NCBI RefSeq assembly: GCF_026015985.1
Contig: NZ_CP110389.1
Coordinates: forward strand, 2,450,001-2,514,000
DNA length: 64,000 nt
Reading direction: 5' to 3'
Source: Rhodopseudomonas sp. P2A-2r
GTDB taxonomy: Bacteria; Pseudomonadota; Alphaproteobacteria; Rhizobiales; Xanthobacteraceae
Shown here: positions 39,450-55,543 of the stretch, piece after piece
Layout of the letters: the number at the start of each line of letters is the position of its first letter
Numbering within the stretch: the first letter of the stretch is position 1
Position numbers and translations under genes: made by a program
The notes under the pieces: model-generated
What the model was told of the DNA's origin: nothing
What the model saw: the letters and a program-made list of their open reading frames with translations, nothing else
Database searches by the model: none

Positions 39450-40217
39450 CTACACGGCCAGGAAGCCGCCATCCACCGGCAAGATTGCGCCGCTGATGTA
39501 CGACGCCATCTTGGAGGCGAGGAACACCACAGGGCCGACCAATTCGTCCGGCTGGCCGACGCGGCCAAGCGGCGTACGCCCGAGAAAACCGGCCAGCCGC
39601 GCCGGATCGTTGCGCGTGCCTTCCGTCATGGCGGTCTCGATCACGCCGGGCGCGATGGCATTAACGCGAATGCCGTCGCGAGCCAGTTCGCGCGCCAGGG
39701 CCTGGGTCAGCAATTTGACGCCGCCCTTGGACGGCGAATAGCCCAGGGTGTCCGCGACGCCGACGAACGACGCGATCGACCCCAGATTGATCACCGTGCC
39801 CTGGGTTGCGCGCAGTGCCGGCAGGAACGCGTGGGTGACGTTGAACACGCCATTCAGATTGACGTCGAGCACGCGGCGCCAGTTTTCTGGCGCGCGTGGC
39901 GAGTCGATGCCTTCGCGAATGATGATGCCGGCATTGTTGACCAGGATCGAAACCTCGCCGGCGCTCTGCCGGATCGTTTCCGCCAGCTGCCGGCACGCGT
40001 CGACGTCGGTCACATCGAAGCGATGGTCCCATGACCGCCGACCCGTTGCGGCGACCTCGCTCGCGGTACGTGCTGCGGCGTCGCCATCTATATCGGTTAC
40101 CACAACGTCGGCGCCATGTGCGGCGAGGCCGATGGCAATGGCGCGGCCGTTGCCGGCGCCGGCTCCAGTGACGAGCGCGAGCTGACCTTTCAGCAGATCC
40201 GGTGCGAAGGTGATCAT
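39450..40217 (-). CDS. Short-chain dehydrogenase/reductase (SDR)
   Basis: This 255-residue classical SDR has the cofactor motif VTGAGAGNGRAIAIGLA, the NNAG motif (ILVNNAGII), catalytic Ser in INLGSIASFVG, the YxxxK motif YSPSKGGVK and the C-terminal GAILPVDGGFLAV. The Asp after the second strand (VVTDIDGDAA) favours NAD(H). The gene overlaps the flavoprotein gene by 4 bases (40214-40217), so the two products probably act on the same pathway, such as alcohol/ketone and ring desaturation steps. The substrate is unknown. Confidence 0.9.
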   Translation of the reverse strand: MITFAPDLLKGQLALVTGAGAGNGRAIAIGLAAHGADVVVTDIDGDAAARTASEVAATGRRSWDHRFDVTDVDACRQLAETIRQSAGEVSILVNNAGIIIREGIDSPRAPENWRRVLDVNLNGVFNVTHAFLPALRATQGTVINLGSIASFVGVADTLGYSPSKGGVKLLTQALARELARDGIRVNAIAPGVIETAMTEGTRNDPARLAGFLGRTPLGRVGQPDELVGPVVFLASKMASYISGAILPVDGGFLAV

Positions 40218-41938
40218 GCGGCCACCGCGGGGGTGCCGGCGAGGTGGCGGCCGGCGATATAGCCGAAAGTGAGCGCGGGGCCGAGCGTGATCCCGGCGCC
40301 AGGATAATTGCCGCCCATAATGCTCGTCATGTCGTTTCCCGCCGCATACAGCCCGCTGATCACTTGGCCGTCGGCATCGAGCGCGCGGGCATGGGCGTCG
40401 GTTTTGACGCCCGCATAGGTCCCGAGGTCGCCGATCACCATCTTGATGGCATAAAATGGCGCTTGCGCCAGCGGCGCGACGCAGGGATTCGGGCCTTGCT
40501 CGGCGTCGCCTTGGTAACGGTTGTAGGCACGCGAGCCCTTGCCGAAGGCCGGATCGCGCCCTTCGGCTGCTGCCGCATTGAACCTCGTCACAGTCGTTAC
40601 GAACGCATCGACATCGATGCCTGCCGTAGCCGCCAGCTCCTGCAGCGTGGCACCCTTCAGCAGATAGCCGGATCGCAGATAGTCGCCGATCGGCATTGGA
40701 AACGGCGGGATGCAGCCAAGGCCATAGCGACGCAGTGCCCGATGGTCGCAGACCAGATAGGCCGCGATCTCTTCGCCGGGCTTTGCCGCCTTCATCATCT
40801 TCTGCACGAAGTCGTGGTAGGAATTACCCTCGTTGGCGAAGCGGTTGCCATCGCGCATCACGGCGATCACGCCCGGCTTGGCGCGATCGATGAAGTGCGG
40901 CATCACGCCTTTGCTGCCGTCCCTGCGGGTCGTGACGGATACCGGAACCCACGCGGCTGCATTGGGCAGGCTGTCTTCGACGCGCCCGCCTGCGGATTCC
41001 GCCAGACGCAGGCCATCCCCAGTATTGCCGGTCGGTCCCGGCGAGGTGTGCTCGTAACCTGACGGGGCGTGCGGAAACATGGCCTTGCGCCGCTCGATGT
41101 CGTGAGGGAAGCCGCCGCAGGCCAGAACCACACCACGTCGTGCGACGATGCGCATGCGCCTGCCGTTGCGTTCGATCACGGCGCCGCGGACCGCGCCATT
41201 CTGCATGATCAGCTCGCGCACGGGCGACGACAGCCACAGGGGAATCTTCAGATCGAAGGCCGATTTTGCCAGCCGGCCGGCGAGGGCGTTGCCGTTTGTC
41301 AAGGTCATGCCGCGGCCATAGCGCAGCACGTTCATGAGATGGCGAGTCAATCGTTTGGCGACATAGACGGCGGAGGTCAGCGACCGCGTTGCACGCATGA
41401 AGTGGATGATGTCCTTGCCGGAACCCAGCATGATCCCGAACACCGTCAGCTCAGGCAATGGCGCGCCGATATCCTTGATGTGGTCGCCGAGCTCGCGCCC
41501 GTCGAACGGTCGCGCGACCATCGAACGCCCGCCCTGCTTGCCGCCGGGTGCTTCGGCGTCGTAATCGGGAAAAGTCAGCGGCATGTCGAAGCGCACCGCA
41601 GTCTTGGTGGTGAAGAAATCGACCGCCTCCGGCCCGGCTTCGAGAAACGCATCGACGCGCGCGGCATCAAAGCTGTTGCCGGCTTCGTGACGCAGATAGG
41701 TGCGCGCCTCGTCCGGCTCCTCGACGATGCCCCAGGCGCGCGCCAGCGACGTGCCGGGAATCCATAGCCAGCCGCCGGAGCGCGCGGTGGTGCCGCCAAA
41801 CCGCGCTTCCTTCTCGACGATGAGGACATCGAGACCGCCGTGCTTCGCGGTGATCGCCGCCGACATGCCGGAGGCGCCGGAGCCGGCGACGAGCACGTCG
41901 CATTCGTAGGTCTCGATGGCGGTTTGGGGATCGGTCAT
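40214..41938 (-). CDS. FAD-dependent dehydrogenase (3-ketosteroid dehydrogenase/fumarate reductase-like)
   Basis: This 574-residue flavoprotein has the N-terminal FAD motif VLVAGSGASGMSAAITA, then IVEKEARFGGTTARSGGWLW, typical of the KstD/FrdA group, and the C-terminal GLYAAGNDMTSIMGGNYPGA and GITLGPALTFGYIAGRHLA stretches that close the FAD site. It could desaturate a ketosteroid-like or alicyclic ring or reduce a double bond. It lies 6 bases after the binding-protein gene and overlaps the SDR gene, making an uptake-plus-catabolism operon controlled by IclR. The substrate cannot be assigned. Confidence 0.87.
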   Translation of the reverse strand: MTDPQTAIETYECDVLVAGSGASGMSAAITAKHGGLDVLIVEKEARFGGTTARSGGWLWIPGTSLARAWGIVEEPDEARTYLRHEAGNSFDAARVDAFLEAGPEAVDFFTTKTAVRFDMPLTFPDYDAEAPGGKQGGRSMVARPFDGRELGDHIKDIGAPLPELTVFGIMLGSGKDIIHFMRATRSLTSAVYVAKRLTRHLMNVLRYGRGMTLTNGNALAGRLAKSAFDLKIPLWLSSPVRELIMQNGAVRGAVIERNGRRMRIVARRGVVLACGGFPHDIERRKAMFPHAPSGYEHTSPGPTGNTGDGLRLAESAGGRVEDSLPNAAAWVPVSVTTRRDGSKGVMPHFIDRAKPGVIAVMRDGNRFANEGNSYHDFVQKMMKAAKPGEEIAAYLVCDHRALRRYGLGCIPPFPMPIGDYLRSGYLLKGATLQELAATAGIDVDAFVTTVTRFNAAAAEGRDPAFGKGSRAYNRYQGDAEQGPNPCVAPLAQAPFYAIKMVIGDLGTYAGVKTDAHARALDADGQVISGLYAAGNDMTSIMGGNYPGAGITLGPALTFGYIAGRHLAGTPAVAA

Positions 41939-41944
41939 GTCGTC

Positions 41945-43150
41945 CTACTTTTTCAGCAGCGGGCACTTCGATTCGGAGACCGGTCGGAAGGCGTCCTCGC
42001 CTTTGACGGTCTTGACGATATCGAGGTAGTCCCAGGGCTCCTTCGACTCCGACGGCTTCTTGACCCGGGCCAGATACATGTCGCGGATGACGCGGCCGTC
42101 CTCGCGCAGCTTGCCGCCGTGTACGAAGGTGTCTTCGATCGGAATTGCGCGCATTGCCGCCATTACCTTGGCGGGATCGTCGGTGCCAGCCGCCTTGATG
42201 GCCTTCAGGTAGTGCAGCACGGAGCCGTAGACGCCGGTCTGAATCATGGTCGGCATCACGTTGGTCCGGGCAAAGAACTTCTTCGACCAAGCCCGCGTCT
42301 TGTCGTTCATGTTCCAGTACGACGCTGTGGTGAGATAGGTGCCTTGCGCGGCTTCAAGCCCGATGGCGTGAACGTCGGTGTCGAACATCAGCAGGCCAAC
42401 CAGTTTCTGGCCGCCTTTGCCAAGACCGAATTCACCAGACTGCTTGATCGAATTATCGGTGTCCTGGCCAGCATTGGCGAAGGCCACAACTTCGGCTTTC
42501 GAGCTCTGAGCCTGCAGCGCGAAGGAGGAAAAGTCGGCGGTATTGGTTGGGTGGCGCACGCTGCCGAGCACCGTGCCGCCGCCTGCCTTGATGAAGCGCG
42601 TGGCGTCCTGTTCGAGCTGGTTGCCGAAGGCATAGTCAGCCGTAATGAAAAACCATGATTTGCCGCCCTCGGCGATCACAGCCGAAGCGGTGACCTTCGA
42701 CAGCGCATAGGTATCGTAGGTGAACTGTACAGTGTTCGGGCTGCACAGCTCGTCGGTGATCGAGCTGGCACCCGGACCCGACAGTAGCGCAATCCTGTTG
42801 CGCTCACGGGCGAGATTGTGAACGGCGATGGCAATCGCCGAGTTCGGAATATCGGCGATGGCATCGACCTTGCCTGCGTCGAACCAGTTGCGCGCGATCT
42901 GGACGCCGACATCCGACTTCATCTGGTGGTCGGCGCTGACGATCTCGATCGGCTTGCCGAGAACGGTGGGCCCGAATTCCTCAACCGCCATTTTCGCGGC
43001 TTCGACCGAACCGGGACCGCTGTTGTCGCGTCCCCAGCTCGAGAGGTCCGTGAGCACGCCGATGCGGACCACGTCGTCGGAAATCTGTGCGGAAGCGGCG
43101 GATGTCCAAAGCGTGAGCACGGCTGCGCACACCAGCAACTGGCGTTTCAT
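41945..43150 (-). CDS. ABC transporter substrate-binding protein, branched-chain amino acid/aromatic type
   Basis: This 401-residue periplasmic binding protein (Peripla_BP_6, LivK-like) has a Sec signal peptide (LLVCAAVLTLWTSAASA-Q) and the family start VVRIGVLTDLSSWGRDNSGP. In soil alphaproteobacteria this subfamily often binds aromatic acids or other carbon compounds rather than amino acids. No LivH/M/G/F genes adjoin it, so it must use permeases encoded elsewhere. It is the first gene of the flavoprotein/SDR/IclR operon, and its promoter region carries repeated AGCGAA motifs. Confidence 0.88.
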   Translation of the reverse strand: MKRQLLVCAAVLTLWTSAASAQISDDVVRIGVLTDLSSWGRDNSGPGSVEAAKMAVEEFGPTVLGKPIEIVSADHQMKSDVGVQIARNWFDAGKVDAIADIPNSAIAIAVHNLARERNRIALLSGPGASSITDELCSPNTVQFTYDTYALSKVTASAVIAEGGKSWFFITADYAFGNQLEQDATRFIKAGGGTVLGSVRHPTNTADFSSFALQAQSSKAEVVAFANAGQDTDNSIKQSGEFGLGKGGQKLVGLLMFDTDVHAIGLEAAQGTYLTTASYWNMNDKTRAWSKKFFARTNVMPTMIQTGVYGSVLHYLKAIKAAGTDDPAKVMAAMRAIPIEDTFVHGGKLREDGRVIRDMYLARVKKPSESKEPWDYLDIVKTVKGEDAFRPVSESKCPLLKK

Positions 43151-43340: not shown

Positions 43341-44270
43341 CTATTGCCGCTTATGACTCGCATTCACCGCGATCGCCGCAGCCGCGGTGCGGTTCTCGAC
43401 GCCGAGCTTGGCGTAGATCTGCTCCAGGTGCTTGTCCACGGTGCGTGGGCTGAGACCGAGGATCTGCGCGATGTCGCGGTTGCTCTTGCCCTTGCTGAGC
43501 CAGGTCAGCACCTCGCCCTCGCGACTGGTGAGGCCGAGCTCCTTGCTGAACTCCGCCGGCACACTGGCGGTGGATTCCTTTGCGAGGCGCAGCAGGAATT
43601 CGTTGGGGCCGACCTTGCCCATATATTGCAGCCGCAACTGATCGTTATGAGGAAAGGACGCCGAAGTCCCCGCCTTCGAACCGGATACGCCGCTTTGTGC
43701 CTGGCGGAGCCACTGCAGCAAGGGCGGCGGCAATACCAGATCGTCGTCGACGCCAGCGGCGAGATTATCGGCCAGCAGCTTTTGCGCCTGCGGGGTTGCC
43801 CACAGAATGCTGCCATCGCCATCGACCGCCAGCAGGAAGCGACCGGAGACGTCGAGCGCCGTGCGCGCGCTCTGGGTCAGCCGCGCATTGGCAAGATGGA
43901 CGCGGATCCGCGCGATCATTTCCTCGATCACGATCGGCTTGGTCACGTAGTCGACGCCGCCGACTTCAAGGCCGCGCACGATGTGTTCGGTCTCGGCAAG
44001 CCCGGTCATGAAGATCACCGGCACGTCGCTGATCCCGGCGTCGCGCTTCAGGCGGCGGCAGGTCTCGAAGCCGTCCATGCCGGGCATCACGGCGTCGAGC
44101 AGGATGATGTCCGGGGTAATCTGTTCGACGATGCGCATCGCTGCGGCGCCGTCCATAGCCACCATCACGGTCATGCCGGCGCCGTCCAGCGCGTCGGTGA
44201 GGAGCCGCAGGGTCTCCGGGGAATCGTCCACGACGAGCGCGATGTCGCGCTTTTTCGGATCAATGTTCAT
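43341..44270 (-). CDS. LuxR/NarL-type response regulator paired with the NCS1-kinase fusion
   Basis: This 309-residue protein has an N-terminal receiver domain (ALVVDDSPETLRLL, phospho-Asp in IILLDAVMPGMDGF, Lys in YVTKPIVIEE), a middle PAS-like segment (GRFLLAVDGDGSILWATPQA) and a C-terminal LuxR HTH (LTSREGEVLTWLSKGKSNRD, SPRTVDKHLEQIYAKLGV). The start overlaps the end of the fusion kinase gene by 11 bases, so they form a coupled two-component pair. It is the likely activator of the urea/amide uptake operon on the other side of the kinase gene. Confidence 0.92.
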   Translation of the reverse strand: MNIDPKKRDIALVVDDSPETLRLLTDALDGAGMTVMVAMDGAAAMRIVEQITPDIILLDAVMPGMDGFETCRRLKRDAGISDVPVIFMTGLAETEHIVRGLEVGGVDYVTKPIVIEEMIARIRVHLANARLTQSARTALDVSGRFLLAVDGDGSILWATPQAQKLLADNLAAGVDDDLVLPPPLLQWLRQAQSGVSGSKAGTSASFPHNDQLRLQYMGKVGPNEFLLRLAKESTASVPAEFSKELGLTSREGEVLTWLSKGKSNRDIAQILGLSPRTVDKHLEQIYAKLGVENRTAAAAIAVNASHKRQ

Positions 44271-47200
44271 GGCTGTGCAACGTCTTCAGCGTGGCCATGT
44301 ACTGGTCGAGATCGAAGCGGTCGACCAGCGAGCGCATCTGCGCCACGAAGTCGGCCTGCTCGGGATGATCGCTGTCGATCTCGTCGAGCTTCAGCTGGAT
44401 GGCGCGGATGTAGCCCATCTGGCCGAGGCTCATGAGCTCTTCCACATGCCTGACGGCGGGGCGTGGGCCGCTCGGTTTCCAGGGCGCGACCGGAAGCTGG
44501 CCGCGCTCGTATTGCCATTCGATTTTCAGGAGTTGTCCGATCAGTTCGAGCAGGCGGGGGATATCGATCGGCTTCATCAGGTAGCCGTCGTGAAATGGCT
44601 GCGCCAGCGGCGCACCGTGCGCCTCCAGCGCGCTGGCCGAGACCATCAGGATGCGCGCCTGGTGGTGACCGGTCGCGCGCAGGGTTTCCGCTACAGTCCA
44701 GCCGTCCATGCCGGCCATGGAAATGTCGAGCAGGAACAGGTCGGGCCGGCAATGCTGCGCCAGATTGAGGCAGGCGGGGCCGTCAGGCGCACTGAGGAGA
44801 ATGAAGCCCAGCGGCGTCAGCACTTCGCGCACCAGGTCGCGCTGGGTCGGATCGTCGTCGGTGATCAGGATCGTCTTGCGCGGGCCGTGATAGCCGAAGA
44901 TCGGCGCATCCACCGGTGCAATCCGGGTCGGGTTGGTGACTTCCGACAGCAGCATCTTGACCCGGAAGGTGCTGCCGGCGCCCACCATGCTGGTTACGCG
45001 GATGTCGCCGCCCATCACGCCGGCCAGGAGCTTGCTGATGGTCAGCCCGAGACCGGTGCCGGTGTGCGGTTGCGACACGCCCAGCGCGCCGCGCTCGAAC
45101 GGCGCAAAGATGCGCTCCAGGTCGTCGGCGCGGATGCCCGGACCGGTGTCGATCACCTCGAACTCGGCGACCGGGCTGCGATAGTGGATGACGAACTGGA
45201 CGCTGCCGGCTTGCGTGAACTTGATGGCGTTGGACAGGAGATTGATCAGGATCTGGCGCAGGCGCTTCTCATCGGCATAGACCACTAGCGGCAATACGCC
45301 CGGCCGCCGGAACACGAAATCGATGCCCTTCGCCGTGGCCTGCAGGCGGAACATGCCGACCAGCTGATCGAGAAAATCGGTGAGGCGGACCTCGTCGCGC
45401 GACAGATACAGCCGACCGGCTTCGATCTTGGAGATATCCAGAATGCCGTCGATAAGCCCCGACAGATGGTCGGCGCTGCGCTTGACGACCCGGACCTGGT
45501 CGCGCGGCTTGTCCAGCAGGCTGGCGTCCTGCTCCAGCAACTGCGCGTAGCCGCTGATGGCGTTGAGGGGCGAGCGCAGTTCGTGGCTGAGGCCGACGAC
45601 GTAGCGGCTTTTCGCCAGGTTGGCGGATTCCGCCACTTCCTTGGCGCGCTGCAACTCGGCGTCGGTGCGCTTATGGGCATCGATTTCCTGCATCAGCAAT
45701 GTGGTCTGGCGCAGCGTCTCGGCCTCGGCGGCGCGGCGGCTCTGTTGCGCCAGCACGAACAGCCAGGCGACCACGCCGATGATGATGGTCAGCGCAAAGA
45801 ACACTTTCCACAGCACATCGGAGATCTGCAGGTTATCGGCGTGTGCCGACGCCGAAGTCTGCAGGTAGATCAGCGCCAGCGTCAGCGCGACCAGTCCGGC
45901 CGACAGGGCGAATACGCCGAGGTAATGGCCGAGCTGCGAGTTGATCCGCGCATAGATCGGCTCCGGCAGCAATTTTCCCAATGCCACCGAGACCTGCGCC
46001 TGGATCCGCGCATGTGGCTTGCAGAGGTCATGGCAGCGGGCATCCAGCGAACAGCACAGCGAGCAGATCGGGCCTGCGTAGGCTGGGCAATGCGCCATGT
46101 CCTCGGGTTCGAACGAATGCTCGCAGATACAGCAGGGAATCACCGGCAGGTTCTGCCAGGCGCGCTTCGGCTTTCGCGCGATGTAGTATTTGCCGTCTGT
46201 GGCCCAGGCGATGACGGGGGCGGTTACCAAAGCCGTGACCAGCGCGACGAACGGCGACAGCGCCTTCGCGGTAGAGCCGAACAGGCCGTAGAAAGCGCTG
46301 ATCGAGACCACGGTGGCGACCAGCATGGCGCCGACGCCGACCGGGTTGATGTCGTAGAGATGCGCGCGTTTGAATTCCATGTGCTGCGGACGGAGCCGGA
46401 GCGGCTTGTTGATCACGAGGTCCGCGACCAGCGCGCCGACCCAGGCGATGGCGACGTTGGAATACAGCGCCAGCGTCTGTTCGAGCGCCTTGTAGACGCC
46501 GATCTCCATCAGCAGCAGCGCCACAAGCACGTTGAACACCAGCCAGACCACGCGGCCGGGATGGCTGTGGGTGAGGCGGGAGAAGAAGTTCGACCAGGCG
46601 ATCGAGCCGGCATAGGCGTTGGTGACGTTGATCTTGATCTGCGACAGGATCACGAAGGTCCCGGTCAGTGCCAGCGCCAGGTCCGGCTGCGACAGCACAT
46701 AGCGGAAGGCCTGCAGGTACATATGCGCGGGTTCTGCGGCATGTTCGGCGGTGACGCCGTGGCTGAGCGCGAAATAGGCCAGGAACGAACCGGCCAGCAG
46801 CTTCAGCGCGCCGACCACGATCCAGCCGGGGCCGGCGCACAGCATCGCCACCCACCACGAAGCCTTGGCGCTGCGGCGCTCGCGCGGCAGGAAGCGCAGG
46901 AAATCGACCTGCTCGCCGATCTGGGCGACCAGCGAGAACACCACCGAGGCGGCGGTGCCGAACAGCAGCAGATCGAGATGCCCCGCGGGGTCGCCGTGTT
47001 CGCCGGGAAACTTGGTCCATTCGACGAAGGAGTCGCGGCTGCTCCAGGCTATCGCCGCGAAGGGCAGGATATTGAGGATGAACCACAGCGGCTGGGTCCA
47101 CAGCTGGAAACGGCTGATCAGCGTGATGCCGTAGATCACCACCGGGATGATCACCACTGCGGAAATCAGGTAGCCGATCGGGCGCGGGATGTCGAAGCAC

Positions 47201-47649
47201 ATCTCCAACGCGGTCGCCATGATGACGGCCTCGATGGCGAAGAAGATGAACGTGAAGGAGGCGTAGATCAGCGAGGTGATGGTCGAGCCGATATAGCCGA
47301 AGCCCGCGCCGCGGGTCAGCAGATCGATGTCGATGCCGCATTTCGCCGCCTGGTACGCGATGGGCAGGCCGCAGCAGAAGATAATCAGGCTGACCACCAG
47401 GATCGCTGCGGTGGCATTGGTGACGCCGTAGTTGATGGTGATGGTGCCGCCGATGGCTTCCAGCGCCAGGAATGAGATGGCGCCGAGCGCGGTATTGGCG
47501 ACCCGGGTCGATGACCAGCGGCGCGCGCTCTTTGCGGTGAACCGCAGCGCGTAATCCTCAAGAGTCTGGTTGGCGACCCATTGATTGTACTGGCGCCTGA
47601 CGCGGTCGATCCGCTGTCGCCCTGCCACATTCCGCTCCTGACCAGTCAC
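44260..47649 (-). CDS. NCS1 transporter-histidine kinase-receiver fusion (hybrid sensor kinase)
   Basis: This 1129-residue inner-membrane protein has four parts. Residues about 25-500 are an NCS1/CodB-like permease (NQTLEDYALRFTAKSARRW, TINYGVTNATAAILVVSLI, many membrane helices). Residues 506-543 are a soluble module with nine Cys. Two more membrane helices and a coiled coil lead to the HisKA domain (His689 in GLSHELRSPLNA) and HATPase (N box INLLSNAIKF, DTGPGIRADD, TGTGLGLTISK). Residues about 925-1040 are a receiver (phospho-Asp975 in LFLLDISMAGMDGW, Lys in YLMKPID). The start is GTG. A transporter-like domain probably senses urea, an amide or a nucleobase-like ligand for the paired LuxR-type regulator. 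It is divergent from the urea/amide importer. CbrA (SLC5-type) is a known analogue with another transporter family. Confidence 0.9.
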   Translation of the reverse strand: MTGQERNVAGRQRIDRVRRQYNQWVANQTLEDYALRFTAKSARRWSSTRVANTALGAISFLALEAIGGTITINYGVTNATAAILVVSLIIFCCGLPIAYQAAKCGIDIDLLTRGAGFGYIGSTITSLIYASFTFIFFAIEAVIMATALEMCFDIPRPIGYLISAVVIIPVVIYGITLISRFQLWTQPLWFILNILPFAAIAWSSRDSFVEWTKFPGEHGDPAGHLDLLLFGTAASVVFSLVAQIGEQVDFLRFLPRERRSAKASWWVAMLCAGPGWIVVGALKLLAGSFLAYFALSHGVTAEHAAEPAHMYLQAFRYVLSQPDLALALTGTFVILSQIKINVTNAYAGSIAWSNFFSRLTHSHPGRVVWLVFNVLVALLLMEIGVYKALEQTLALYSNVAIAWVGALVADLVINKPLRLRPQHMEFKRAHLYDINPVGVGAMLVATVVSISAFYGLFGSTAKALSPFVALVTALVTAPVIAWATDGKYYIARKPKRAWQNLPVIPCCICEHSFEPEDMAHCPAYAGPICSLCCSLDARCHDLCKPHARIQAQVSVALGKLLPEPIYARINSQLGHYLGVFALSAGLVALTLALIYLQTSASAHADNLQISDVLWKVFFALTIIIGVVAWLFVLAQQSRRAAEAETLRQTTLLMQEIDAHKRTDAELQRAKEVAESANLAKSRYVVGLSHELRSPLNAISGYAQLLEQDASLLDKPRDQVRVVKRSADHLSGLIDGILDISKIEAGRLYLSRDEVRLTDFLDQLVGMFRLQATAKGIDFVFRRPGVLPLVVYADEKRLRQILINLLSNAIKFTQAGSVQFVIHYRSPVAEFEVIDTGPGIRADDLERIFAPFERGALGVSQPHTGTGLGLTISKLLAGVMGGDIRVTSMVGAGSTFRVKMLLSEVTNPTRIAPVDAPIFGYHGPRKTILITDDDPTQRDLVREVLTPLGFILLSAPDGPACLNLAQHCRPDLFLLDISMAGMDGWTVAETLRATGHHQARILMVSASALEAHGAPLAQPFHDGYLMKPIDIPRLLELIGQLLKIEWQYERGQLPVAPWKPSGPRPAVRHVEELMSLGQMGYIRAIQLKLDEIDSDHPEQADFVAQMRSLVDRFDLDQYMATLKTLHSHEH

Positions 47650-47720
47650 GCTACGCAGTTGCGCCTTGGCAAAAACCTACGTCGCCATTTTGCGGTGCAG
47701 TATACGCGTTCTCACGTATC

Positions 47721-47733
47721 TGTGCATCGCACA
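47721..47733. promoter_or_regulatory. Dyad in the kinase/importer divergent promoter
   Basis: TGTGC-ATC-GCACA is a perfect 5 bp dyad located 72 bp from the kinase start and 55 bp from the importer start. In the 138 bp divergent region it is the clearest candidate site for the LuxR-type regulator. Nearby ACGT-containing tracts (TACGCG, CACGTA) may also matter. Confidence 0.35.
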
Positions 47734-47787
47734 ACTTCACCCATGCTTGCCTTACCAATAGGCGTCCTCGAAACAGGTGGGGTTGAC

Positions 47788-49047
47788 ATGTCAGACGAGA
47801 AGAAACCGGGCCTACATTCGCCGTTGCGGCGAAAATTGCTGATGGGCATGGCGGCGCTGCCCGCATTGACGATGCTTCCGCGCCCATCTTTTGCGCAGTC
47901 GCCTGCGACTTCGGCGGTCAACACCACCGGCCTGGCGGTGACCGATACGGAAGTCACCGTCGGCATCCTGCATTCCGCGACCGGCACCATGGCGATCTCG
48001 GAAACCGGCTCGATCGAGGCCGAGAAGCTGGCCATCGAACAGATCAACGCCATGGGTGGCGTGCTCGGTCGCAAGATCAAGTTCATCCAGGAAGACGGCG
48101 CCTCGGACTGGCCGACTTTCGCCGAAAAGGCCAAGAAGCTGCTGGTCAACGACAAGGTCGCCGCCATCATGGGCTGCTGGACCTCGGCGTCGCGCAAGGC
48201 CGTGCTGCCGGTCATGGAGCAGTATAACGGCATGCTGTATTACCCGACCTTCTACGAAGGTCTGGAGCAGTCCAAGAACGTGATCTACACCGGCCAGGAA
48301 GCCACCCAGCAGATCCTCGCCGGCATCAACTGGATCACCAAGGAGAAGGGCGCCAAGTCGTTCTACTTCATCGGCTCCGATTACATCTGGCCGCGCACCT
48401 CGAACAAGATCGCGCGCAAGCACATCGAGAACATGCTCAAGCTCAAGGTCGTGGGCGAAGAGTATTTCCCGCTCGGTCACACCCAGTTCAATTCGGTCAT
48501 CAACAAGATCAAGCTGACCAAGCCGGACGTGATCTTCACCGACGTGGTCGGCGGCTCCAACGTCGCCTTCTACAAACAGCTCAAGGCCGCCGGCATCGAT
48601 CTCAACAAGCAGACGCTGCTGACCATCTCGGTCACCGAGGACGAAATCGACGGTATCGGCGGCGAGAACATCGCGGGCGCCTATGCCTGCATGAAGTACT
48701 TCCAGTCGCTGAAGAACGACAACAACGCCAAATTCGTCCCGGCCTTCCACAAGATGTGGGGCGAAAAGACCGTGATCGGCGACGTCACCCAGGCTGCGTA
48801 TCTGGGACCGTGGCTGTGGAAGCTCACCGTCGAGAAGGCCGGCTCCTTCGACATCGACAAGGTCGCAGCGGCGTCGCCCGGCATCGAGTTCAAGGGCGCG
48901 CCGGAAGGCTATGTGCGGATCCACGAGAACCATCACCTGTGGTCCAAGACCCGCGTCGGCAAGGCGCGTCTCGATGGCCAGTTCGACGTGGTCTACGAGA
49001 CCGCCGACCTGGTCGAGCCGGATCCGTTCCCCAAGGGCTACCAGTAA
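47788..49047 (+). CDS. urtA: Urea/short-chain amide ABC transporter substrate-binding protein (UrtA/FmdD-like)
   Basis: This 419-residue periplasmic receptor has the UrtA/FmdD/AmiC-type start VTVGILHSATGTMAISETGS and the segments NDKVAAIMGCWTSASRKAVL and YYPTFYEGLEQSKNVIYTGQ. The signal region has a twin-arginine-like start (LRRKLLMGMAALPALTMLP). I chose the ATG at 47788, which directly precedes the signal; in-frame codons upstream lack one. It is the first gene of urtABCDE-fmdA-fmdB. Because formamidase genes follow, the physiological ligand could be formamide or acetamide as well as urea (compare FmdD of Methylophilus). Confidence 0.9.
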   Translation: MSDEKKPGLHSPLRRKLLMGMAALPALTMLPRPSFAQSPATSAVNTTGLAVTDTEVTVGILHSATGTMAISETGSIEAEKLAIEQINAMGGVLGRKIKFIQEDGASDWPTFAEKAKKLLVNDKVAAIMGCWTSASRKAVLPVMEQYNGMLYYPTFYEGLEQSKNVIYTGQEATQQILAGINWITKEKGAKSFYFIGSDYIWPRTSNKIARKHIENMLKLKVVGEEYFPLGHTQFNSVINKIKLTKPDVIFTDVVGGSNVAFYKQLKAAGIDLNKQTLLTISVTEDEIDGIGGENIAGAYACMKYFQSLKNDNNAKFVPAFHKMWGEKTVIGDVTQAAYLGPWLWKLTVEKAGSFDIDKVAAASPGIEFKGAPEGYVRIHENHHLWSKTRVGKARLDGQFDVVYETADLVEPDPFPKGYQ

Positions 49048-49141: not shown

Positions 49142-50068
49142 ATGTTCGGCGAGTATTCGATTGGCGATCTCGGCGCCATTTTCGCGATGCAGGGTTTTGC
49201 CGGGCTGATCCTGTTCTCGGTCTATGTGCTGATGGCGCTCGGCCTCGCGATCATTTTCGGCCAGATGGGCGTCATCAACATGGCGCACGGCGAATTCATG
49301 ATCCTCGGTGCCTACGTCACCTGGATGACTTCGAACTTCTTTCAGACGTTTTTGCCGTCGCTGTTCTCCGGCTACTTCTTCGTCGCCATGATCCTGGCCT
49401 TCATCGCCTCCGGGGCGCTGGGCATGCTGGTGGAATGGGCGCTGATCCGGCATCTCTACAAGCGCCCGCTGGATACGCTGCTGGCCACCTGGGGCCTCAG
49501 CCTGATCCTGCAGCAGGCCTATCGTTCGATCTTCGGGGCTCGCGAAGTCGGCGTCGAACTGCCGCAGTGGATGATGGGCTCGCAGCGCGTGACCGACACC
49601 ATCGAAGTGCCGATCAATGGCATCTTCGTGATGGGGCTGACGCTGCTGATCACCATGGCGGTCGCCTGGATCATGTACAAGTCGCGCTGGGGCCGCCAGG
49701 TCCGCGCTGTCGTGCAGAACCGCGTGATGGCCGGCGCCGTCGGTATCAATACCGAGCGTGTCGACTGCTACACGTTTGGCCTGGGTTGCGGCATTGCCGG
49801 CATCGCCGGATCGGCCTTCACCATGATCGGCTCGACCGGGCCGACCTCCGGTCAGCTCTACATCGTCGACACCTTCCTCGTCGTGGTGTTCGGCGGCGCC
49901 GCCAGCCTGGTCGGCACCATCGCCTCCGCCTTCACCATCTCGCAGGCGCAATCGACCATGGAATTCTTCATGTCCGGTTCGATGGCCAAGGTGCTGACCC
50001 TGCTGGCCGTCGTCGGAATCCTGATGCTGCGCCCGCAGGGCCTGTTTGCTCTCAAGGTCCGCAAGTAA
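49142..50068 (+). CDS. urtB: Urea/amide ABC transporter permease (UrtB/FmdE-like)
   Basis: This 308-residue LivH-type permease has the segment GLAIIFGQMGVINMAHGEFM near the N-terminus, characteristic of UrtB, and NRVMAGAVGINTERVDCYTF later. The ATG at 49142 has a good ribosome site (ACGGAGGAC). The family's longer UrtB proteins carry an extra N-terminal periplasmic domain, which is absent here, as in the FmdE type. It pairs with UrtC (next gene, 19 bp downstream) to form the channel for urea or short amides. Confidence 0.9.
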   Translation: MFGEYSIGDLGAIFAMQGFAGLILFSVYVLMALGLAIIFGQMGVINMAHGEFMILGAYVTWMTSNFFQTFLPSLFSGYFFVAMILAFIASGALGMLVEWALIRHLYKRPLDTLLATWGLSLILQQAYRSIFGAREVGVELPQWMMGSQRVTDTIEVPINGIFVMGLTLLITMAVAWIMYKSRWGRQVRAVVQNRVMAGAVGINTERVDCYTFGLGCGIAGIAGSAFTMIGSTGPTSGQLYIVDTFLVVVFGGAASLVGTIASAFTISQAQSTMEFFMSGSMAKVLTLLAVVGILMLRPQGLFALKVRK

Positions 50069-50087: not shown

Positions 50088-51233
50088 ATGTCCGACAATG
50101 CGCGTCTCGTCAATCGGCCGGAACTTCTCGGCATCCTCGCGCTCGCAGTCCTGCTGGTGGTGATCCTGCCGCTGACGCTCGACGTGTTCCGTCTCAACCT
50201 GGTTGCGAAGTACCTCACATATGCGTTCGTGGCGGTCGGGCTGGTGATCTGCTGGGGCTATGGCGGCATTCTCAGCCTCGGCCAGGGCGTGTTCTTCGGC
50301 CTCGGCGGCTACTGCATGGCGATGTTTCTCAAGCTTGAAGCGTCCAGCCCGGAAAACACCAAGATCCAGTCGACGCCCGGTATTCCGGATTTCATGGACT
50401 GGAATCAGATCACCGAACTGCCGTTCTTCTGGAAGCCGTTCCACAGCCTGACCTTTACCGTGATCGCCATCATCGTGGTGCCGGCATTCTTCGCCTTCGT
50501 CATCGGCGCCGCCATGTTCAAGCGCCGCGTCGGCGGCACCTATTTCGCCATCATCACCCAGGCGGTGGCGGCGATCCTCACCATCCTGATCGTCGGCCAG
50601 CAGGGCTACACCGGCGGCATCAACGGCATGACCGACCTGCGCACCCTGAAAGGCTGGGACATCCGTCCGGACCACGCTAAGATCGTGCTGTATTTCTTCG
50701 AGGTTGCCTGCCTGTTCGGCTGCATCTTCGTCGCCCAGTTCATCCGTCGCTCCAAGCTCGGCCGCATCCTGGTGGCGATGCGCGACAAGGAGGACCGCGT
50801 GAGGTTCTCCGGCTACAGCGTCGCCAACTTCAAGATATTCGCCTTCTGCGTCGCTGCAATCTTTGCGGCGATCGGCGGCGCCATGTTCGCGTTGCAGGTC
50901 GGCTTCATGTCGCCGTCCTTCGTCGGCATCGTGCCGTCCATCGAGATGGTGATTTACACGGCGGTCGGCGGCCGGCTGTCGATCCTCGGCGCGGTCTACG
51001 GCACGCTACTGGTCAACTTCGCCAAGACCAGCTTCTCGGAATCCTTTCCCGAACTCTGGCTGTTCGGGCTCGGCGGCCTGTTCATCGCGGTGGTGCTGGC
51101 ATTCCCGAACGGGCTTGCCGGGATCTGGAGCGATTACGTGCAGCCGCGCATCGACCGGCTGCTGCGCAGGAAGGATTCGAAGAAGAACGGCTGGACCGAT
51201 ACCTCGGTCGCCGATGGCGCCCCGGCAGAGTGA
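50088..51233 (+). CDS. urtC: Urea/amide ABC transporter permease (UrtC/FmdF-like)
   Basis: This 381-residue LivM-type permease has AFVAVGLVICWGYGGILSLG as the family N-terminal motif, RVGGTYFAIITQAVAAILTI, and the C-terminal TAVGGRLSILGAVYGTLLVN. The ATG at 50088 follows a GAAGCC stretch; an ATG 42 bases upstream overlaps urtB and is less likely. Its stop lies 10 bases before the urtD start. The long C-terminal tail with charged residues is cytoplasmic. With UrtB it forms the membrane channel. Confidence 0.9.
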   Translation: MSDNARLVNRPELLGILALAVLLVVILPLTLDVFRLNLVAKYLTYAFVAVGLVICWGYGGILSLGQGVFFGLGGYCMAMFLKLEASSPENTKIQSTPGIPDFMDWNQITELPFFWKPFHSLTFTVIAIIVVPAFFAFVIGAAMFKRRVGGTYFAIITQAVAAILTILIVGQQGYTGGINGMTDLRTLKGWDIRPDHAKIVLYFFEVACLFGCIFVAQFIRRSKLGRILVAMRDKEDRVRFSGYSVANFKIFAFCVAAIFAAIGGAMFALQVGFMSPSFVGIVPSIEMVIYTAVGGRLSILGAVYGTLLVNFAKTSFSESFPELWLFGLGGLFIAVVLAFPNGLAGIWSDYVQPRIDRLLRRKDSKKNGWTDTSVADGAPAE

Positions 51234-51243
51234 GGAGACGAAC

Positions 51244-51999
51244 ATGCTGATCGGTCACCAGCCCAAGGATTTCCTGCTCGCGGTGGAGGGACTGACTGTG
51301 TCATTCGATGGCTTCAAGGCCGTCAACGACCTCTCCTTCTACGTCGAGGAGAACGAGATCCGCGTCATCATCGGGCCCAACGGCGCCGGCAAGACCACGG
51401 TGCTCGATCTGATCTGCGGCAAGACCAAGGCCACGTCGGGCGCCATCCATTTTCGTGACAAGGACCTCACGAAGATGAAGGAGAACCAGATCGTCCAGGC
51501 CGGTGTCGGCCGTAAATTCCAGACGCCGTCGATTTATGACGATCTCACCGTGTTCGAGAATCTGGAGATTTCCTTCCCGCGCGGCCGCAGCGTGTTCGGC
51601 GCGCTGACCTTCAAGCGTGACGCGGTGGTGCGCGACCGGGTCGAGGAAGTCGCCGAGATGATCTTTCTCAAGGATCGCCTCAACATGTCGGCCGAATTGC
51701 TCAGCCACGGCCAGAAGCAGTGGCTGGAGATCGGCATGCTGCTGATCCAGGACCCGGACCTCCTGATGCTCGACGAACCGGTCGCCGGCATGAGCGTCAG
51801 CGAGCGCATCAAGACCGCCGAATTGCTCAACACAATCATCAAGAACCGGTCGGTTCTGGTGATCGAGCACGATATGAAGTTCGTCGAGGACATCGCCCAC
51901 AAGGTCACAGTCCTGCACCAGGGCCAGATACTGTCGGAAGGCTCGATGGAGAAGGTCAAGAACGACCCGAAGGTCATCGAAGTTTATCTGGGGCATTGA
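51244..51999 (+). CDS. urtD: Urea/amide ABC transporter ATP-binding protein (UrtD-like)
   Basis: This 251-residue LivG-type ATPase has Walker A GPNGAGKTTVLDLI, Q-loop VGRKFQTPSIYDDLTV, signature LSHGQKQWLEIGMLL, Walker B LLMLDEPVAGMSV and the switch His in VLVIEHDMKFVE. The LSHGQKQWLEI signature form is characteristic of UrtD. The start has a strong ribosome site (GAGGAGA). A 200 bp gap filled by a compound palindromic repeat separates it from urtE, which is unusual, as these two genes normally adjoin closely. Confidence 0.92.
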   Translation: MLIGHQPKDFLLAVEGLTVSFDGFKAVNDLSFYVEENEIRVIIGPNGAGKTTVLDLICGKTKATSGAIHFRDKDLTKMKENQIVQAGVGRKFQTPSIYDDLTVFENLEISFPRGRSVFGALTFKRDAVVRDRVEEVAEMIFLKDRLNMSAELLSHGQKQWLEIGMLLIQDPDLLMLDEPVAGMSVSERIKTAELLNTIIKNRSVLVIEHDMKFVEDIAHKVTVLHQGQILSEGSMEKVKNDPKVIEVYLGH

Positions 52000-52199: not shown

Positions 52200-52889
52200 A
52201 TGCTTGCGATTAACGATCTCCACGTCGCCTACGGCCAGAGCGAGGTGCTGCACGGGCTCAACATCGCTGTGCAGCCCAACGAGATCGTCGCGATCATGGG
52301 CCGGAACGGCATGGGCAAGACCACGCTGATGAAGTCGCTGATGGGCATCGTGCCGACCAGAAGCGGTTCGGTAAAGATGGAGGGCGCCGAACTCAGCGGG
52401 TTGAAGAGCTATGAGCGGGTCTACAAAGGACTAGCCTACGTGCCGCAGGGCCGCATGATCTTCTCGCATATGACGGTCAAGGAGAATATCGAGACCGGCC
52501 TCGTCGCCTCCGGCGAAAAGGACGTGCCGGCCGATCTTTATGAGCTATTTCCGGTGCTGCTGGAAATGAAGGGCCGCCGCGGCGGCAACCTGTCCGGCGG
52601 ACAGCAACAGCAGCTCGCCATTGCGCGTGCGCTCGCCACCAAGCCGAAGGTGCTGCTGCTCGATGAGCCCACCGAAGGCATCCAGCCGTCGATCATCAAG
52701 GAGATGGCGCGGACGCTGAAGCGCATCCGCGACACCAAGGGCCTGTCGATCATCGTGTCCGAACAGGTGCTGAGTTTCGCGCTCGACGTCGCCGACCGCG
52801 TGCTGGTGATCGAGAACGGCGAGATCGTCCGCGATGAGGCACGCGAGGGGATCGATGCCGCGCAGATCGCCAAATACCTGTCCGTTTAA
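52200..52889 (+). CDS. urtE: Urea/amide ABC transporter ATP-binding protein (UrtE-like)
   Basis: This 229-residue LivF-type ATPase has Walker A GRNGMGKTTLMKSL, signature LSGGQQQQLAIARAL, Walker B VLLLDEPTEGIQPSI and the switch residues IIVSEQVLSFAL. The GRNGMGKTT form is typical of UrtE. The ATG at 52200 has a good ribosome site (GGAGGCC). It forms the ATPase heterodimer with UrtD. Despite the repeat upstream it keeps the normal operon order and is followed 49 bases later by fmdA. Confidence 0.92.
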   Translation: MLAINDLHVAYGQSEVLHGLNIAVQPNEIVAIMGRNGMGKTTLMKSLMGIVPTRSGSVKMEGAELSGLKSYERVYKGLAYVPQGRMIFSHMTVKENIETGLVASGEKDVPADLYELFPVLLEMKGRRGGNLSGGQQQQLAIARALATKPKVLLLDEPTEGIQPSIIKEMARTLKRIRDTKGLSIIVSEQVLSFALDVADRVLVIENGEIVRDEAREGIDAAQIAKYLSV

Positions 52890-52938: not shown

Positions 52939-54168
52939 ATGCCAGAGACCATCATCAAGGTCGATTTGACGCAGTCGGCCTATGACAACGACATGATCCA
53001 CAACCGCTGGCATCCCGACGTGCCCATGGTGGCGTGGGTCAATCCTGGCGATGATTTCATTGTCGAGACCTATGACTGGACCGGCGGCTTCATCAAGAAC
53101 AACGATTCCGCAGACGACGTGCGCGATATCGATCTGTCGATCGTGCACTTCCTGTCCGGCCCGATCGGCGTCAAGGGCGCTGAGCCGGGCGATCTCCTGG
53201 TCGTCGATCTGCTCGATGTCGGTCCGATGAAGGACTCGCAATGGGGCTTCAACGGCTTCTTCTCCAAGCAGAATGGCGGCGGCTTTCTCACCGACCATTT
53301 CCCGCTGGCGCAGAAGTCGATCTGGGACTTCAAGGGCATGTTCACGTCGTCCCGGCACATCCCGGGCGTGAACTTTGCAGGGTTAATCCACCCCGGCCTG
53401 ATCGGCTGTCTGCCAGATCCGAAACTGCTGTCGACTTGGAATACACGCGAACAGGCGCTGATCGACACCAACCCGACCCGCGTTCCAGGCCTCGCCAATC
53501 CGCCGTTCGGCCCGACCGCCCATATGGGCCGGCTCAAGGGCGAAGCCCGCGACAAGGCCGCGGCCGAAGGCGCGCGCACCGTACCGCCGCGCGAACACGG
53601 CGGCAATTGCGACATCAAGGATCTGTCGCGCGGCTCGAAAGTGTACTTCCCGGTCTATGTACCGGGCGGCGGTCTCTCGATGGGCGATCTGCACTTCTCG
53701 CAGGGCGATGGCGAAATCACCTTCTGCGGCGCCATCGAGATGGCGGGCTGGCTGCATATCAAGGTCGAGGTCATCAAGGACGGTGTGGCGAAATACGGCA
53801 TCAAGAATCCGGTTTTCAAGCCGTCGCCGATGACGCCGAACTACAAGGACTTCCTGATCTTCGAAGGCATCTCGGTCGATGAGGCCGGCAAGCAGCATTA
53901 CCTCGACGTCCACATCGCCTATCGTCAGGCGTGCCTGAATGCGATCGAGTATCTGAAGAAGTTCGGCTATTCCGGCGCCCAGGCCTATTCGATCCTCGGC
54001 ACAGCGCCGTGCCAGGGCCACATCTCCGGCGTTGTCGACGTGCCCAATGCCTGCGCCACGCTGTGGCTGCCGACGGAGATCTTCGACTTCGATATCAATC
54101 CGTCGTCGCTGGGCCCGATCAAGCACATCGACGGCTCGATCCAGATGCCGCTGTCGCAGGACAAATAA
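52939..54168 (+). CDS. fmdA: Formamidase (FmdA/AmdA acetamidase-formamidase family)
   Basis: This 409-residue cytoplasmic amidohydrolase splits formamide (and more slowly acetamide and similar short amides) to ammonia and the acid. Length and motifs match FmdA of Methylophilus methylotrophus: NRWHPDVPMVAWVNPGDDFI, GAEPGDLLVVDLLDVGPM, PPREHGGNCDIKDLSRGSKV and SMGDLHFSQGDGEITFCGAI. The ATG at 52939 has a ribosome site (AAGGGGAGC). Its place after urtABCDE ties uptake of amides or urea to hydrolysis. A REP-like hairpin lies just after its stop, before fmdB. Confidence 0.93.
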   Translation: MPETIIKVDLTQSAYDNDMIHNRWHPDVPMVAWVNPGDDFIVETYDWTGGFIKNNDSADDVRDIDLSIVHFLSGPIGVKGAEPGDLLVVDLLDVGPMKDSQWGFNGFFSKQNGGGFLTDHFPLAQKSIWDFKGMFTSSRHIPGVNFAGLIHPGLIGCLPDPKLLSTWNTREQALIDTNPTRVPGLANPPFGPTAHMGRLKGEARDKAAAEGARTVPPREHGGNCDIKDLSRGSKVYFPVYVPGGGLSMGDLHFSQGDGEITFCGAIEMAGWLHIKVEVIKDGVAKYGIKNPVFKPSPMTPNYKDFLIFEGISVDEAGKQHYLDVHIAYRQACLNAIEYLKKFGYSGAQAYSILGTAPCQGHISGVVDVPNACATLWLPTEIFDFDINPSSLGPIKHIDGSIQMPLSQDK

Positions 54169-54237: not shown

Positions 54238-54579
54238 ATGCCGGTCTATGAATATCTCTGCGACGACTGCGGTCCCTTCACCGAGATGCGGCCGATGGCT
54301 GAATGCGATGAGCCGCATGACTGCCCGCAATGCGCTGCTACGGCACCGCGGGTGATCCTCACCGCGCCGGCATTTTTCTGCATGCCCTCGGCTCAGCGCA
54401 AGGCGCACGCCACCAACGAGCGCAGCTCCCACGCGCCGAAGACCGTCGCCGAATACAAGGCATCGCACGCGCCGGGCTGCGGCTGCTGCTCCGGCAAGAA
54501 GCCGTCACGGCTGGTCGCCAAGACCAGAAGCGGCGGCAAGAGCTTCCCGACGGCGCGGCCGTGGATGATCAGCCACTGA
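54238..54579 (+). CDS. fmdB: FmdB-family zinc-ribbon protein
   Basis: This 113-residue protein has an N-terminal FmdB/CxxC zinc ribbon: YLCDDCGPFTEMRPM and HDCPQCAATAPRVI supply two CxxC pairs. A less conserved basic tail contains another Cys cluster (GCGCCSGKK). FmdB was proposed as a regulator of formamidase synthesis in Methylophilus. Its molecular role is still unclear. The gene follows fmdA after a hairpin, so it is probably the last gene of the amide operon. Confidence 0.88.
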   Translation: MPVYEYLCDDCGPFTEMRPMAECDEPHDCPQCAATAPRVILTAPAFFCMPSAQRKAHATNERSSHAPKTVAEYKASHAPGCGCCSGKKPSRLVAKTRSGGKSFPTARPWMISH

Positions 54580-54703
54580 CCCGAGGCCGCGGCAATCGTT
54601 TGCGCGACATCTTCCGCCAGATCGGCTAGATATGGCTTCACGCGCACTGCCTCGTGGGGGCGGTGGCGCGTTGCGACGGCGTTGCGGCAGACCAGAGGCA
54701 CTC

Positions 54704-55543
54704 TTGAGGCAGCACAAATTCGGAGCGAGCGGCCCGTCCGTGCCGGTGATCGGGCAGGGCACCTGGTACATCGACCGCGGTGATCGGTCGGAGGCTATTG
54801 CTGCGCTGCAGCGTGGCCTCGACCTTGGCATGACCCATATCGACACTGCGGAGATGTATGGCGACGCCGAGCCGGTGGTGGGCGAGGCCATCGCCGGCCG
54901 GCGCGACGAGGTGTTCCTGGTCTCCAAGGTGCTGCCGAACAACGCCTCGCGGCAGGGGACCGTCGCCGCCTGCGAACGCTCGCTGAAGCGGCTGCGGACC
55001 GACCGGCTGGACTGCTACCTGCTGCACTGGCGCGGCCAGATCCCCCTCGCGGAAACCGTTGCCGGCCTCGAAGACCTCGTTAGCGCTGGCAAGATCCGCA
55101 GTTGGGGTGTCAGCAATTTCGACGCCGGCGATCTCCATGCGCTGAGCAAGGTCGCGGCCAAGGGCAGCATCGCCTGCAATCAGGTGCTGTATCACCTGCA
55201 GGAACGCGCCATCGAGCACGCGGTCATCCCGTGGTGCGAGCAGCATGGCGTCGCGGTGGTGGCCTATTCGCCATTTGGCCACAACGACTTTCCCTCGCCG
55301 CGTTCCGCCGGCGGCAAGATCCTGCAGCGCATCGGTGATGCCCACGGTGCCACGCCGCATCAGGTCGCGCTGGCTTTTCTCACACAGCGGTCATCGTTGT
55401 TCGCCATTCCCAAGGCGGCGTCGGCCGCGCATGCGGAGGACAATGCGGCTGCCGGCGCGCTGGAGTTGAGCGCGGCCGAACTTGCTGTCATCGGCGAGGC
55501 GTTCCCGCTGGGGCGCGAGCCCGCGAGTCTGCCGATGCTGTAG
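54704..55543 (+). CDS. Aldo/keto reductase
   Basis: This TIM-barrel oxidoreductase of about 279 residues has the AKR pattern: GLDLGMTHIDTAEMYGDAEP with catalytic Asp and Tyr, FLVSKVLPNNASRQGT with the Lys, DCYLLHWRGQIPLAE with the His, and GKIRSWGVSNFDAGDLHAL. The cofactor-binding AIPKAASAAHAEDN is near the end. I favour the TTG at 54704, preceded by AGAGGCA, because upstream in-frame sequence from an ATG at 54632 is Arg-rich and unlike the family. It is probably NADPH-dependent. The substrate is unknown and no clear functional link to the fmd genes is seen. Confidence 0.85.
   Translation: MRQHKFGASGPSVPVIGQGTWYIDRGDRSEAIAALQRGLDLGMTHIDTAEMYGDAEPVVGEAIAGRRDEVFLVSKVLPNNASRQGTVAACERSLKRLRTDRLDCYLLHWRGQIPLAETVAGLEDLVSAGKIRSWGVSNFDAGDLHALSKVAAKGSIACNQVLYHLQERAIEHAVIPWCEQHGVAVVAYSPFGHNDFPSPRSAGGKILQRIGDAHGATPHQVALAFLTQRSSLFAIPKAASAAHAEDNAAAGALELSAAELAVIGEAFPLGREPASLPML

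Follow-up and report, generated by a model that had tools for sequence, protein, structure and literature searches.

Histidine kinases with a transporter-type membrane domain have been described for the SLC5 family, CbrA and RpuS being the examples in the available parts of the accounts (PMC13022988, PMC9100948). In Ks-Amt5, according to the accessible portion of its description, a kinase is fused to Amt and serves as an ammonium sensor (PMC5764959). The fmd cluster of Methylophilus methylotrophus encodes a formamidase and a binding-protein-dependent importer of short-chain amides and urea, and the available text reports induction by formamide and urea (PMC10781810). In Ectopseudomonas guguanensis G3, the third set of urtABCDE genes (set III) is accompanied by a hybrid kinase and a LuxR-family regulator, with fmdA at a neighbouring locus number, as given in the part of the paper at hand (PMC13296017), and the accessible section of a paper on P. 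pseudoalcaligenes mentions a formamidase without naming a kinase of this kind for it (PMC6368324). The original prediction held that an NCS1-kinase fusion wired to urea and amide genes is little described. This agrees with our literature search, which covered subscription journals thinly, leaving an earlier description possible, and in which no account of an NCS1-kinase fusion or of a urea-sensing kinase was found.

The kinase and its neighbours in the window

The window, the whole stretch of 64,000 nucleotides analysed, comes from Rhodopseudomonas sp. P2A-2r; the features considered here are collected in Table 1. The reading frame of the kinase on the minus strand (44260-47649) is open for 1129 codons. 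The GTG at 47628 is the probable start, giving a protein of 1122 residues, with 47649 as the alternative. Pfam recognizes only HisKA, HATPase_c and receiver domains in the product of 44260-47628, which together with the His and Asp sites make it a hybrid histidine kinase; an SLC5 (SSS) transporter domain was not recognized in it. Among its closest relatives is a Tardiphaga sp. protein that matches at 94% across the first 655 residues. In the genome itself no second copy of the membrane domain was found, the remaining 59 matches being to the kinase or receiver part.

Table 1. Features of the kinase locus in the window
Feature	Position	Strand	Basis
Response regulator, partner of the kinase; REC (Asp59) and LuxR-type HTH	43341..44270	-	PF00072, PF00196
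NCS1-like domain/hybrid histidine kinase gene	44260..47628	-	ORF, start, Pfam domains, predicted fold
Receiver domain with Asp975	44539..44871	-	PF00072 and residue position
HATPase_c	44950..45273	-	PF02518
HisKA with His689	45415..45612	-	PF00512 and residue position
Two further hydrophobic helices, residues 572-630, into HisKA	45760..45936	-	Predicted structure
Cys-rich module, residues 505-544, eight invariant Cys	46018..46137	-	Alignment of relatives
NCS1-like domain, residues 41-494	46168..47529	-	Profile-profile comparison and fold
Palindromic predicted operator TACG-N8-CGTA	47703..47718	.	Conserved in gaps; window copy TACGCGTTCTCACGTA
urtA, urea/amide-binding protein	47788..49047	+	TIGR03407, 540.7 bits
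urtB permease	49142..50068	+	TIGR03409; start by inspection
urtC permease	50088..51233	+	TIGR03408; start by inspection
urtD ATPase	51244..51999	+	TIGR03411; start by inspection
urtE ATPase	52200..52889	+	TIGR03410; start by inspection
fmdA formamidase	52939..54168	+	NF045496, 761 bits; PF03069
fmdB zinc-ribbon protein	54238..54579	+	TIGR02605, NF053663; PF09723

The nature of the membrane domain depends on the method by which it is approached. The first 500 residues gave no match to Pfam PF02133 at E <= 1, and a PF02133 search of the genome matched two other genes only, not the kinase. A search of the PDB with a sequence profile of the sensor (31 relatives) returned zero chains at E <= 10. 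By contrast, hhalign of the sensor against a profile of three PF02133 proteins scored 99.2% (E 1.2e-19) over residues 41-494. The predicted structure of residues 1-660 (pLDDT 75.5, pTM 0.74; residues 1-39 and 425-431 poor) found CodB as the best hit of a fold search and then Mhp1, ahead of other LeuT-fold families. The likeness to these two NCS1 transporters lies in the fold of residues 29-519, whereas the domain of the kinase differs from both in being 16% identical in structural alignment, in falling under Pfam detection and in its fusion to a kinase; this identity is too low for ligand-site residues to be mapped onto the sensor. Since the profile comparison and the predicted fold both lie nearest CodB and Mhp1, the first ~500 residues are assigned as NCS1-like, though divergent, and the term NCS1-like is used because PF02133 itself gives no match. 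The opposite view, that Pfam's silence means there is no NCS1 domain, was rejected on the same two grounds. An NCS1 profile match over the first 500 residues had been expected; the expectation failed for PF02133 and held for the profile-profile comparison and the fold. Within the domain, Q243, E246, Q247, D249, K339, N341 and N344 are almost invariant.

About 12 membrane helices, counted from the list of predicted helices and arranged in a presumed topology, precede a stretch with nine Cys residues, eight of them invariant among relatives. This Cys module may bind metal. Its fold search yielded only weak, short, zinc-finger-like matches, a list that leaves room for a known fold. Residues 492-660, in the position that a STAC domain takes in SLC5/STAC kinases, form a Cys hairpin followed by helices when modelled alone and have no clear PDB match. 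The helices predicted at 572-601 and 606-659 recur in this separate model; their sequence suggests that they lie in the membrane, and in the predicted structure the second continues as a long helix toward HisKA. Pfam, the profile-profile comparison and the predicted structure thus bear out a one-gene fusion of an NCS1-like domain, a Cys-rich module behind it, a histidine kinase and a receiver, as the original prediction had it, with the nine Cys and the signalling residues, His689 in HisKA and Asp975 in the receiver, in place.

The product of 43341-44270 combines a REC domain with a GerE/LuxR HTH, as in response regulators of the NarL/LuxR type, and its gene overlaps that of the kinase by 11 nt. 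On the other side, 159 nt separate the kinase start from the ATG of the divergently oriented urtA (47788). UrtA-E of the window all score above the NCBIfam cut-offs for a urea ABC transporter operon. The overlap, the strands and the NCBIfam and Pfam assignments confirm the arrangement that had been claimed, a kinase gene coupled to a LuxR-type regulator gene and divergent from urtABCDE-fmdA-fmdB.

The complete importer also bears on what the membrane domain does. The protein might be a true transceptor, its NCS1-like domain also carrying urea or an amide and its kinase reading the transport cycle, as proposed for CbrA, which is called a transceptor in the available part of that account (PMC13022988). 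The whole transporter fold is kept in the predicted structure, and the NCS1-like TM8 stretch N-x2-N-x-Y-A-G-S-x-A-W-S-N varies little among relatives, both of which fit such a protein; however, with a complete ABC importer alongside the kinase a second carrier is not needed, and we regard transport by the sensor as possible but doubtful.

Several observations concern genes outside this set. A stand-alone NCS1-type transporter (L063:4949-9373), a PF02133 member 30% identical to the sensor domain, has as neighbours a UrtA-like binding protein and a gene encoding carbon-nitrogen hydrolase domains; it is possibly an amide carrier and a relative of the sensor's ancestor. Two flanking genes of the window were rejected as parts of the system: the downstream solute-binding gene (41945-43150) occurs in no row among the neighbourhood matches listed, and the aldo-keto reductase (54632-55543) in one row at 74% identity (L070) and a few at ~30%. 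Window positions 40214-43150 encode a solute-binding protein of the amino-acid type and an FAD-dependent oxidoreductase of the ketosteroid-dehydrogenase type, both apparently unrelated. At 32454-35165, 12 kb from the urea genes, lies a gene for a molybdopterin oxidoreductase that contains a BFD [2Fe-2S] domain and may be an assimilatory nitrate reductase.

Partners of the kinase in other bacteria

A search with residues 1-660 at E <= 0.001 gave raw matches, weak stand-alone transporters included, in 48 of the 199 genomes sampled from the order and in 60 of the 398 sampled from the phylum. Strong matches (E < 1e-100) occur in 52 of the 398 phylum genomes, including one kinase of a short type (G376) and one truncated at a contig edge (G401). 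The kinase is present in all 38 genomes with a window-type UrtA (best UrtA >= 70% identity) and in 14 of the 360 others, a co-occurrence to which no probability is attached because the genomes are related. The loci examined further number 169, made up of 89 stretches around strong order and phylum hits and the best 80 of 595 named matches; the window's own copy and weak stand-alone-transporter hits and fragments (including G259, G413, G463 and G372:C40) were left out of the counts. Since some loci occur in both sets (L179 and L073 are apparently the same contig), the 123 rows with less than 90% identity are the safer base.

With the best 80 of 595 named matches included, UrtA, FmdA or urease genes are visible in 164 of the 169 loci, UrtA in 153 and FmdA in 97. 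In the five loci with none of the three, just 0-922 nt of sequence precede the kinase; one of these loci (L189) nevertheless has the palindrome described below. One recurrent partner operon is urtABCDE-fmdAB; the other is a distinct urtABCDE set, often accompanied by urease, with a UrtA ~36-42% identical to that of the window. Window-type Urt is found with FmdA in 93 loci (one also with urease) and without FmdA in view in 10; the second Urt type is found with urease in view in 20 and alone in view in 30. Seven loci have urease without UrtA in view (three of them, L136, L140 and L146, with other Urt subunits) and four have FmdA without UrtA. In Rhizobium (L229) the second-type UrtA-E all exceed the NCBIfam cut-offs and are followed by urease gamma; other second-type loci carry UreD and UreC (L205, Devosia), UreD (L217, L139) or UreE (L149). 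Of 18 second-type loci alone in view that were extended, urease appeared in four and was not found within the added stretch in 14, and all 17 genomes of such loci that were checked have urease elsewhere. A search of 19 second-type loci without urease in view for another conserved enzyme found only Urt, kinase and regulator. In 159 of the 169 loci the regulator gene lies directly beside the kinase gene and in the same orientation.

The recurrent linkage of homologous fusions to urt and fmd genes, which had been predicted, is borne out by these counts. With the co-occurrence in 38 of 38 genomes it also supports the view of the fusion as a likely sensor for urea and amide scavenging, its scope now widened to urtABCDE-urease. 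A link to formamidase only was rejected, many loci carrying urease instead. Two kinds of abbreviated protein were also seen. Short kinases of 878-897 residues (L111, L112, L113, L148) have FmdA nearby, without Urt and without an adjacent regulator of the usual kind; they form a branch of their own in the tree, and the one that was scanned has no receiver. A frame of 623 codons (L062:6842-8713) contains only the last part of the Cys module, the helices and the kinase and receiver domains; no NCS1-like domain was found upstream, and the frame is possibly a decayed or shortened relative.

A quick tree was built from the 123 rows, of which 72 have window-type Urt, 36 the second type, 7 only urease and 3 only FmdA, and 5 are unplaced. 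Its well-supported branches require that the second Urt type was gained or lost as a partner at least five times. Four genomes (G338, G402, G422, G553) each contain two kinases, one next to window-type Urt-FmdA and the other next to urease genes. Yet in residues 1-660 a single column, 350 (Ile/Leu), is diagnostic of the partner (70% in each group; 72 versus 43 rows). With so many changes of partner and one diagnostic column, a ligand common to both groups is the simplest reading. Urea suits this role better than formamide alone because the sensor also pairs with urtABCDE-urease operons. By analogy with M. methylotrophus, as far as its available description goes (PMC10781810), urea would be the substrate common to Urt-urease and the formamidase cluster.

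A different signal has to be considered for the same neighbourhood. Urea is an end product of purine breakdown, and the kinase might sense another nitrogen-scavenging cue, such as allantoin, hydantoin, ammonium or nitrogen status, and merely control urt. Such a cue would suit the known NCS1 carriers, which take nucleobases, hydantoins and allantoin (PF02133 description), but the genes conserved nearby are those for Urt, FmdA and urease, and recurrent purine-breakdown genes were not seen in the 19 loci inspected for conserved neighbours. We therefore consider a cue other than urea or a short amide unlikely.

A palindrome between the kinase gene and urtA

Reading of the gaps between urtA and the kinase gene brought to light a palindrome with the consensus TACGTCA-NN-TGACGTA. 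Gaps were counted in 135 loci; in the other 34-35 of the 169 the gap could not be measured or the contig is missing there. Exact TACG-N8-CGTA occurs in 105 of the 135 gaps, compared with 0.3 on average in dinucleotide shuffles, and divides into 75 of 103 window-type and 30 of 32 second-type gaps. Spacers of 4-7 and 9-13 occur in 0 or 1 of the 135. The 16-mer with at most one mismatch is present in 67 of 135 gaps and in no shuffle. After thinning to less than 90% identity the dyad remains in 67 of 94 gaps (46 of 71 window-type, 21 of 23 second-type). The dyad occurs at 2.76 copies per kb within the gaps, compared with 0.011 per kb in the remainder of these loci. It was found in alphaproteobacteria (the window, Rhizobium), betaproteobacteria (Achromobacter, L213; Burkholderiales, L214) and gammaproteobacteria (Pseudomonas; Methylomicrobium, L203), with two copies in four Pseudomonas loci (L211, L215, L233, L235). 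In two loci (L143, L151) it precedes urtA although urtA is not beside the kinase start, which ties the site to urtA. The exact palindrome is missing from 30 of 135 gaps, including the Alcanivorax and Marinobacter loci listed.

The controls were 20 regions upstream of urtA from genomes without the full kinase, none of which has the palindrome; they belong to second-type or more distant UrtA, one (L262) being only 383 nt long, and no window-type UrtA without the kinase was found to serve as a control. The palindrome could belong to another regulator, the kinase-LuxR pair controlling the operon weakly or not at all. FmdB is termed a putative positive regulator in the available account of M. methylotrophus (PMC10781810), none of the seven urease-only and four FmdA-only loci has the exact palindrome, and binding of the LuxR-type regulator to it is a prediction. 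Against this stand the contrast between 105 of 135 kinase-linked gaps and 0 of 20 kinase-free controls and the presence of one site before both operon types, fmdB being found in just one of them. Ownership of the site by another regulator thus appears quite improbable.

In the window a copy of the palindrome would be expected 0.08 times in 64 kb. The genome contains six matches to TACGYNNNNNNRCGTA, and the five besides the window copy sit inside open frames of 332-654 codons. A second UrtA-like gene, ~7 kb from a urease alpha gene and outside the window (G000:C1:5672434-5680437), has no palindrome match, which argues that urea handling is not wholly under the kinase system. For the kinase gene, a sigma-70-like match spans the window palindrome; speculatively, the overlap would allow negative autoregulation of the kinase gene. 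By eye, TTGTGC/GATGCA-like arms flank the palindrome at window 47670-47740 and in several alphaproteobacterial gaps, perhaps as a second site or promoter element.

Proposed signal transfer and comparison with known systems

Because it sits beside urea and amide uptake genes and shares a DNA site with them in many bacteria, the kinase probably signals when to scavenge. From the observed anatomy, gene linkage, co-occurrence, partner changes and conserved palindrome we propose, with fair confidence, a receptor for urea and/or urea-sized short amides that derives from an NCS1-type transporter and drives the LuxR-type regulator at the palindrome controlling urt and the genes behind it. Urea or a short amide would bind to the NCS1-like domain and change its shape. 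The anatomy suggests that this change would be relayed by the cytosolic Cys module, the pair of extra helices and the long helix as far as HisKA, from which phosphate would reach the REC-LuxR regulator either directly or via the fused receiver. Conservation of the site predicts that the regulator binds TACGTCA-NN-TGACGTA before urtA and governs urt together with the downstream genes, which encode formamidase in one branch and urease in many loci of the other. Whether these loci amount to a dedicated, widespread urea-sensing two-component system, with one NCS1-derived receptor, Urt plus formamidase or urease according to lineage, and one operator in alpha-, beta- and gammaproteobacteria, we consider evenly balanced.

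Urea is a major fertilizer and a common nitrogen source. With the proposal, urea and amide scavenging in rhizobia, methylotrophs, pseudomonads and marine bacteria gains a receptor, a regulator and a DNA site that can be tested. If it is true, NCS1 joins the transporter folds recruited as kinase-coupled receptors, and the loci in which different enzyme modules stand behind a common sensor and operator serve as a natural experiment on the receptor's ligand.

Among described loci, set III of E. guguanensis G3 is probably the same system as that of the window; the available part of its description gives neither an NCS1 domain nor a role nor an operator (PMC13296017). The fmd cluster of M. methylotrophus shares the formamidase, but the accessible description names no kinase (PMC10781810). 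The palindrome between the kinase gene and urtA is new here. The SLC5/STAC histidine kinases CbrA, CrbS and RpuS likewise join a transporter-fold membrane domain to a kinase that controls nutrient-use genes, and the available portions of their accounts mention neither NCS1 nor urea (PMC13022988, PMC9100948). The window kinase differs from them in that its membrane domain is NCS1-like and not SLC5, its linker contains a Cys-rich module and two extra helices, and its predicted target is urea and amide scavenging. Ks-Amt5, too, is a histidine kinase in which a transporter module has been recruited to sense a nitrogen compound; it has the Amt fold, with no receiver in the part of the description available (PMC5764959), whereas the system of the window combines an NCS1-like fold with a hybrid kinase, a LuxR-type regulator and a conserved predicted operator.
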